The notes under the pieces: generated by a model
Told to the model about the DNA's origin: nothing
The model's input: only the letters and a program-made list of their open reading frames with translations
The model's database searches: none
NCBI GenBank assembly: GCA_016839275.1
Contig: JAEOUM010000114.1
Location: forward strand, 1-43,509
Length of the DNA: 43,509 nucleotides
Direction of reading: 5' to 3'
Source of the DNA: Candidatus Thorarchaeota archaeon
GTDB taxonomy: Archaea; Asgardarchaeota; Thorarchaeia; Thorarchaeales; Thorarchaeaceae
Position numbers and translations under genes: made by a program
Shown here: positions 27,146 through 35,997 of the stretch, in pieces
Numbering within the stretch: the first letter of the stretch is position 1
How the letters are laid out: each line of letters begins with the position of its first letter

Positions 27146-28201
27146 ATGATGACCTCTAATGAGACCGCAAAAATATGTCTGATAACTACAGGCGGGACGA
27201 TTTCAAGTATCTATGACGAACGAACACAGGCACTTCGACCTGGACTTGCTGTGGATGAGCTTCTCGATAGGCTCCCAAAGGGCATGGGTAACATTGAGGT
27301 CATCAAGAGAGAGCTGTACCAACTCGACTCTGCAAATGCTCAACCTCATCACTGGCAGACTTTGGCAGGTGCAATTAAACAGGTCAGCGAGGAGATTGAA
27401 GACCTGCAAGGTATTGTCATCTCTCATGGAACAGATACGATGACATATGCCTCCGCAGCTATTAGTTTTATGATTCAGGACTTTGGGAAACCAATAGTCT
27501 TCACCGGTGCTCAAATACCAGCTAGCATACCTTGGAGTGATGGTCCAAGGAATCTACTTGATGCAATGCGGGTTGCTGCCTTCGGTGATTTGGGTGAAAC
27601 AGTCATTGTGTTCAATGGCGAGATACATAGGGCTACACGAACCAAGAAAGTCCGGGTCAATTCCTACGATGCGTTTGACTCAGTAGATCCATCACCAATC
27701 GGAATCTTAGCCCGAGAGATTGTTCTCTACGAAGGGCGTAAAAAACGTGATACTGCTCTCATTCCTCGATTCGACACTCGTCTTGACGATCGAGTATTTC
27801 TATTGAAGGTCTTTCCAGGAATTCCCTCACAAACACTTACGAAAATCATGGAAATGGGGTATCACGGAATCATAATCGAAGGATTTGGGTCTGGGAATAT
27901 TCCTACTGATGAGAATGCCCTCACGGGAGGAATTCTACAAGCAATCGATCAAGGCTGTTTTGTAGTAATCAGCTCACAATGTGCATTTGGACAGGCAGAT
28001 TTGTCAATCTATGAGGTTGGTAGAGCTGCAATGGAAGTCGGAGCGATGAGTGCCTTTGACATGACTTCAGAGGCAGCACTTGTGAAATTAGCATGGGTCT
28101 TGGGTCACACACGTGACTCGGACCGTGTTCGAGAGATGATGAACATTAGCTACGTTGGCGAAGTATCCTATACTGGATTACCAGAGAAAAGCAACAAGTA
28201 G
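27146..28201 (+). CDS. Type I L-asparaginase
   Basis: Hydrolyses L-asparagine to aspartate and ammonia; 351 aa. ITTGGTISSIY contains the nucleophilic Thr of the first catalytic triad. GIVISHGTDTMTYASAA contains the second-triad Thr-Asp, and the Lys region is VRVNSYDAFDSVDPSPIG. The GatD subunit of the archaeal Glu-tRNA(Gln) amidotransferase shares this fold but has an additional N-terminal domain of about 80 residues, absent here, and no gatE is adjacent. Hence a free-standing asparaginase. Start ATG at 27146, with a second ATG right after it. Confidence 0.9.
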   Translation: MMTSNETAKICLITTGGTISSIYDERTQALRPGLAVDELLDRLPKGMGNIEVIKRELYQLDSANAQPHHWQTLAGAIKQVSEEIEDLQGIVISHGTDTMTYASAAISFMIQDFGKPIVFTGAQIPASIPWSDGPRNLLDAMRVAAFGDLGETVIVFNGEIHRATRTKKVRVNSYDAFDSVDPSPIGILAREIVLYEGRKKRDTALIPRFDTRLDDRVFLLKVFPGIPSQTLTKIMEMGYHGIIIEGFGSGNIPTDENALTGGILQAIDQGCFVVISSQCAFGQADLSIYEVGRAAMEVGAMSAFDMTSEAALVKLAWVLGHTRDSDRVREMMNISYVGEVSYTGLPEKSNK

Positions 28202-28310
28202 GTATCTCTTAGCAAGGCGTCGAGTTGTAGAGCGGTTATGAGTTCTATGGATTAATTAGTAGCAGTGGATGATATGAAAAGGAAGTGGCGCCTGGGATGG
28301 GATTTGAACT

Positions 28311-28340
28311 TGGGCAAAGTCACTCAAAGTGAGTAACTCT
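28311..28340 (-). other. tRNA-Ser intron 2 (non-canonical, T-stem), 30 nt
   Basis: The bulge-helix-bulge is very clean. Central helix GGCA/TGCC (4 bp), 5' bulge TGA, 3' bulge CAA, and an inner 10-bp hairpin GAGTTACTCA-CTT-TGAGTGACTT with a G-T closing pair. Cutting after the second base of each bulge removes 30 nt and joins ATG to AGTTCAAAT in the T arm. Without removal no T stem can be drawn. Confidence 0.8.
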
Positions 28341-28364
28341 CATGCCTCCCGGAGGAGAACAGCT

Positions 28365-28396
28365 GTCTATCCGAAGGCCGGTAAGACAACCGTCGA
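28365..28396 (-). other. tRNA-Ser intron 1 (canonical 37/38 position), 32 nt
   Basis: The minus-strand cut between CTGGAA and T (28397/28396) and between C and A (28365/28364) restores a seven-base anticodon loop. Bulges AAT and ACA, each cut after the second base, flank a short helix (CTGG with ATAG: three pairs, one of them G-T, one mismatch). This is a relaxed bulge-helix-bulge motif for the archaeal tRNA splicing endonuclease. Confidence 0.78.
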
Positions 28397-28512
28397 TTCC
28401 AGGCTGTCGCCGTAAACCAGGCTTGGCTACCCAGGCTTACCAGTGGTGATTTCGATATCCCTTTTCATCTTTTCCCTTGGTTGCATAACTACTAACATGA
28501 AATAATAGAGTT

Positions 28513-35644: not shown

Positions 35645-35997
35645 GTAGCTCTGGTCCAGAGAGTAACCCCAATTCTGTTCCATCTCATCTCGTTACCGTT
35701 ATGAGATCTTGCAACATCGAACTAAGCTTCCTACCCTACACCTCAGGTCGACACATCAACAGTGTATTCTTGGAATTGCTCAACCGGTGATGGGCCGTTT
35801 CAACCAAGCCAAACGAGTCCTCAACAGATTCAAGTCTGTATCATTGTCACGCCCGTTCGGAGGTGTCGTTTCTGTTCCCAGAGCGAGGCTCTCGCCTCCC
35901 TTCTTTCGTTGGACCGGCGCCGACATGAGTCGGGAGTTTCCTCAGCTCTCATCCCTGAGGATGAGTACCGTCAGTTGCGCTTCTGCTCCAGAGCTAC
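35645..35997 (-). ncRNA. rnpB: RNase P RNA
   Basis: 353 nt on the minus strand; the catalytic RNA that matures tRNA 5' ends. P1 is formed by GTAGCTCTGG at 35997-35988 and CCAGAGCTAC at 35654-35645, a perfect 10-bp end helix. CR-I is GCTGAGGAAACTCCCGACTC at 35946-35927 (the universal GAGGAAA-U/C-UCC). CR-V is GGAACAGAATTGGGGTTAC at 35681-35663, which pairs with CR-I to form P4. GGGAACAGAAACGACAC in the middle matches the CR-II/III region. Long plus-strand frames here are incidental. Ends are placed at P1. Confidence 0.93.

Follow-up and report, generated by a model that had tools for sequence, protein, structure and literature searches.

A class II tRNA-Ser(GGA) gene interrupted by two introns lies at positions 28286-28436, minus strand, of the window, the 43,509-nucleotide stretch of Candidatus Thorarchaeota DNA analysed here. 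We put at roughly 93% the probability that this locus is a functional, apparently single-copy gene from which two introns with bulge-helix-bulge (BHB) motifs are spliced out, and that the intron in its T stem is young and has been repeatedly gained and lost. Read on the minus strand, the gene is GCCTGGG TA GCC...CGGC G ACAGC CTGGAA [32 nt] A GCTGT TCTCC TCCG GGAG GC ATG [30 nt] AG TTCAAAT CCCAT CCCAGGC G CCA, and its parts are the following.

28461-28474, minus strand: GAAAAGATGAAAAG motif, about 25-38 nt upstream of the tRNA and common to many relatives; possible promoter element
28397-28436, minus strand: exon 1, with the acceptor 5' strand, D arm, anticodon stem 5' strand and the anticodon GGA to position 37; spliced product called by ARAGORN and conserved in relatives
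28365-28396, minus strand: canonical intron, 32 nt, at 37/38; BHB helix CTGG/ATAG (3 of 4 pairs) with bulges AAT and ACA, from a BHB scan and aligned relatives
28341-28364, minus strand: exon 2, with position 38, anticodon stem 3' strand, long variable arm and T-stem positions 49-51
28311-28340, minus strand: T-stem intron, 30 nt, at 51/52; BHB helix GGCA/TGCC with bulges TG|A and CA|A and a 10-bp intron hairpin, from the empty site in relatives, covariation and the BHB scan
28286-28310, minus strand: exon 3, with T-stem positions 52-53, T loop, T-stem 3' strand, acceptor 3' strand, discriminator G and encoded CCA

The initial annotation had proposed that two segments of 32 and 30 nt must be removed for a class II tRNA to form. 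Indeed, when 28396-28365 and 28340-28311 are taken out, the remaining gene of 89 nt is called tRNA-Ser(GGA) by ARAGORN, as are all 21 genes that were spliced in silico, 20 of them from relatives. The acceptor, anticodon and variable stems of the spliced product are intact, and CCA is encoded. Its mature T stem (28293-28310) carries one mismatch, A52-C62, where the window reads CCCAT and most relatives read CTCAT; the same mismatch occurs in G010, in G022, which has no T-stem intron, and in G032. The canonical intron is 30-33 nt long in the aligned relatives.

The unspliced gene is found neither by ARAGORN, with or without its intron option, nor by the Rfam tRNA model RF00005. To this extent the prediction that standard scanning would miss the gene was correct; tRNAscan-SE 2.0 in archaeal mode includes a BHB routine (PMC8450103) and may find it. 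The locus thereby shows that common tRNA finders can overlook an essential tRNA in Asgard genomes. Minimum free energy folding yields no cloverleaf for the bare pre-tRNA or for the spliced RNA, and such folding commonly fails to give a cloverleaf for tRNAs.

The BHB scan recovers the T-arm motif described in the initial annotation (GGCA/TGCC, bulges TGA and CAA), and many relatives lack the insert. The scan gives four of four pairs in the central helix and five of five in the intron-side helix. The exon-side helix is weak, with three of four pairs formed, two of them G-U. When the 30-nt intron is shuffled, 14 of 14 pairs are reached in none of 20,000 trials. The exon-intron junctions thus fall in two 3-nt bulges separated by a central helix of about 4 bp, excision restores a standard tRNA apart from the one T-stem mismatch, and homologous genes free of the insert exist at the same site, as is characteristic of archaeal BHB tRNA introns. 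From these sequence features we infer that the splicing endonuclease removes the T-stem segment in vivo.

A BLAST search of the pre-tRNA against 59 genomes gives, in many relatives, two adjacent pieces, at approximately query 12-112 and 141-169, and no match in the interval, which indicates that the T-stem segment is absent from those genes. These relatives read GGAGGCATGAGTTCGAATCTCAT where the window reads GGCATG[30 nt]AGTTC. The proof of the predicted intron boundaries is therefore comparative, coming from relatives that lack the 30 nt at exactly the same site. Taken alone, the junction in the window is ambiguous through repeated letters. We set it at 51/52 because the G015 intron begins with T and because the T stem of G026, ATGCG/CGCAT, requires C52 to be on the 3' side. 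A BHB cut made behind the second nucleotide of the bulge falls at this same place.

Ten introns at this site were compared, and all are 30 nt long (two of them, from G000 and G010, are from close kin). Aligned in one common register, the BHB hairpin has standard pairs in 87% of its cells, and 18 double changes fall at 7 of the 14 pairs. The covariation score of 0.54 compares with a shuffled mean of 0.295 (sd 0.037) and was never reached in 500 shuffles; sliding the partners by 1-3 columns lowers it to 0.22 or less. The fourth central pair is A-G in six of the ten introns, so those motifs are slightly relaxed, and the register is kept in all ten.

The host genome is 2.58 Mb and 84% complete. 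Its Asgard identity, as first annotated, is borne out by the asparaginase-like gene beside the tRNA (27146-28201), whose closest relatives, up to 92% identical, come from named Thorarchaeota assemblies. The 51/52 intron is missing from most of the relatives read, and its distribution does not follow descent in any simple manner. Mapped onto a DNA tree of SecY from 31 genomes, the presence and absence of the intron require at least six changes, and four contrasts rest on nodes with bootstrap values of 99 or more (G008/G004; G000 and G010 against G007; G015 within its clade; G017/G036). One of these involves the close sister species G008 and G004, which align at 90% over 3.1 kb and have identical tRNA exons and canonical introns, and in which the 30 nt are present in G008 only. 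Other relatives carry different inserts in the same tRNA: Ser(GGA) has an intron at 58/59 in G018, G029 and G032, and a D-loop insert besides the canonical intron in G025 (L141) and G035 (L140).

Likeness among the T-stem introns is likewise discordant with their hosts. The introns of G008 and G031 agree at 29 of 30 positions at a SecY distance of 0.86, and those of G008 and G000 at only 16 of 30 at a distance of 0.50. Similarly, the introns of G015 and G017 agree at 27 of 30 positions at a distance of 1.12, and the canonical introns of the same two genes match in 15 of 33 columns. This discordance favours repeated gain, lateral spread, or both, and these comparisons suggest that one or the other has shaped the distribution of the T-stem intron. 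Movement may have involved the entire tRNA gene for introns of the G008 type, and only the region around the T arm for G015 and G017.

Copies of the intron were sought in 99 genomes with two core patterns, allowing up to three mismatches. The core shared by G015 and G017 was confined to those two genomes, and the G008-type core was present in five, in every case within the T arm of Ser-type genes. Six of the seven matches are in Ser(GGA) genes at 51/52, and the seventh (G033, locus L195) is in a Ser-like gene cut by a contig end, with its insert at the same T-stem site. No copy at another tRNA site was found with these patterns in the 99 genomes. A tentative extension of our main reading, which we would not favour at present, is that the 30-nt intron is mobile. 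The same or a near-identical intron would then enter position 51/52 of the tRNA-Ser(GGA) gene in unrelated genera of Thorarchaeota on its own rather than with the rest of the gene, either through lateral transfer accompanied by local recombination or through reverse splicing and copying into DNA.

Several other accounts of the locus must be considered. The genomes are metagenome assemblies, and some tRNA types conflict with the SecY tree (G011), so that an assembly or binning artefact deserves mention; we give it almost no credence. The gene is shared at 98% by the independent assemblies G000 and G010, and at least five changes are still required on a tree of the tRNA-neighbouring gene, which is located on the same contig; this rules out binning errors as the source of the turnover. 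It is also very improbable that the locus is a pseudogene, that is, a tRNA-Ser gene disrupted by chance insertions, the genuine tRNA-Ser(GGA) being encoded at another locus. The A52-C62 mismatch and the failure of ARAGORN and RF00005 to recognise the gene would fit such decay. An intact tRNA-Ser(GGA) elsewhere, which the initial annotation had regarded as evidence against its proposal, was not found: a covariance model built from spliced relatives reveals no second or intact Ser(GGA) gene in the assembly, which, being 84% complete, could be missing one. The best Ser-type match of the genome is the window gene itself, at 72.5 bits, and one-intron orthologs in other genomes score mostly 83-96 bits with the same model. 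Also against a pseudogene are the three intact stems, the encoded CCA and an insertion that in distant relatives keeps its 30 nt, its BHB motif and its covariation; and the entire arrangement recurs in a second genome, G010.

The question of intron age is less one-sided. The gene could work as we describe and the T-stem intron still be ancestral to the family, with many losses and no gain or transfer. The constant length of 30 nt, the constant site and the partial likeness of the sequences speak for common ancestry, and loss by recombination with spliced RNA copies is conceivable. Nevertheless, a fully spliced copy would take the canonical intron with it, and the canonical intron stays. The absence of the 51/52 intron from most of the relatives read and the failure of intron likeness to track species in both comparisons above also count against ancestry, and we consider this history unlikely. 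We therefore retain the reading of a young intron that has been repeatedly gained and lost.

The same genome holds further introns of this kind. T-arm introns that have BHB motifs and obey the same cut rule are present in five other tRNAs (L021, L027, L028, L127, L135), at 53/54 in tRNA-Thr(CGT), Thr(GGT) and Lys(CTT) and at 58/59 in Ser(CGA) and Leu(CAG); the Lys(CTT) gene (L028) appears to carry a 37/38 intron too. Apparent inserts, read by eye, are also present in the D arm of Ser(GCT), Arg(TCT) and Glu(CTC) and in the variable region of Met, Lys(TTT), Val(TAC) and Leu(GAG).

The initial annotation had argued that such splicing needs an endonuclease of broad specificity, and the enzyme genes fit this view. 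There are two PF01974 genes, a catalytic alpha and a diverged second gene. The alpha protein matches Aeropyrum pernix EndA over residues 11-188 (4.7e-46), and its K43 aligns with K44 of the A. pernix specificity loop (GQPVGIRKPKS to GQPLDVEKPRG, gap-free), a lysine reported to be necessary for broad specificity (PMC6379350). The second gene has Asn at the catalytic His of the Methanocaldococcus (M. jannaschii) enzyme in an alignment to 1a79. With one catalytic and one non-catalytic subunit gene and the conserved lysine, the enzyme is predicted to be of the (alpha-beta)2 type with a crenarchaeal specificity loop, forming a heterotetramer able to cut relaxed BHB motifs. A gene for the ligase RtcB is also present. 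Once transcribed, the RNA would fold two BHB motifs, one in the anticodon loop and one formed by pairing of GGCA at the foot of the variable arm with TGCC at the end of the T-stem intron. Each 3-nt bulge would then be cut after its second nucleotide by the (alpha-beta)2 endonuclease, and RtcB would join the exons to give the class II tRNA. The T-stem intron itself would be an evolutionarily young insertion, repeatedly gained and lost and probably passed between lineages too.

Noncanonical BHB tRNA introns, the T arm included, are known from Crenarchaeota and above all Thermoproteales, with T-arm sites listed at 53/54, 56/57 and 59/60 (PMC4090602, PMC4033280). The present system resembles these in its short introns at scattered positions, several per gene, in the BHB motif and in an alpha2-beta2 endonuclease. 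It differs in its Thorarchaeota host and in the 51/52 site, which is not in the short list of PMC4090602, a list that ends in 'etc.'. Intron transposition between tRNA genes, by a mechanism not known, has been inferred in Thermoproteales (PMC4090602), whereas in Thorarchaeota near-identical introns are common to species at the same site and none was found at other sites in 99 genomes.

Among Asgard archaea, Atabeyarchaeia and Freyarchaeia have introns in 92-95% of tRNA genes, often at noncanonical positions (PMC11291895). The T-stem location given in the initial annotation stands, but in light of these counts its description as rarely noted for Asgard archaea was overstated. Both systems have many intron-bearing tRNA genes, often with noncanonical and multiple introns; that report concerns other Asgard classes, and the parts of it available to us hold no T-arm detail, sister-species comparison or endonuclease analysis. 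In Caldiarchaeum populations, heterogeneity of tRNA-Thr(GGU) is tied to mobile element integration at 24/25 (PMC3293823). There, too, intron presence differs between very close genomes, but the Thorarchaeota difference is a clean 30 nt, and no inserted element was seen beside it in the stretches read. Thus T-arm BHB introns in Crenarchaeota and abundant noncanonical tRNA introns in Asgard archaea are already known. In the openly readable literature we found no description of T-arm introns in Thorarchaeota, nor of a 30-nt intron that turns over rapidly at a single site in discordance with the phylogeny.

For the question of how archaeal tRNA genes acquire introns, sister Thorarchaeota differing by one precise 30-nt intron present a near-minimal case of gain versus loss. 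The genome also adds Thorarchaeota to the link between loop-bearing (alpha-beta)2 endonucleases and scattered introns, a link relevant to how tRNA splicing arose in eukaryotes.

The flanks of the gene have features of their own. The GAAAAGATGAAAAG motif is rare in the genome (two exact copies), keeps the same placement with respect to the tRNA in loci with a reversed gene, and is replaced by a CTTAAA box in other relatives; it is possibly an unusual promoter. Almost all Thorarchaeota loci have the tRNA beside the asparaginase-like gene (window 28201-28436; L062-L094), and the orientation of the tRNA relative to that gene varies, with at least eight reversals on the gene tree. Inverted repeats, ATGAAAAGG and CCTTTTCAT, flank the tRNA (28267-28282 with 28460-28475). 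As a general cause of the reversals these repeats were rejected, since of 18 loci only those of the window and G010 show them clearly. Elsewhere in the window, an ordinary archaeal RNase P RNA is encoded on the minus strand at 35652-35990 (163 bits).
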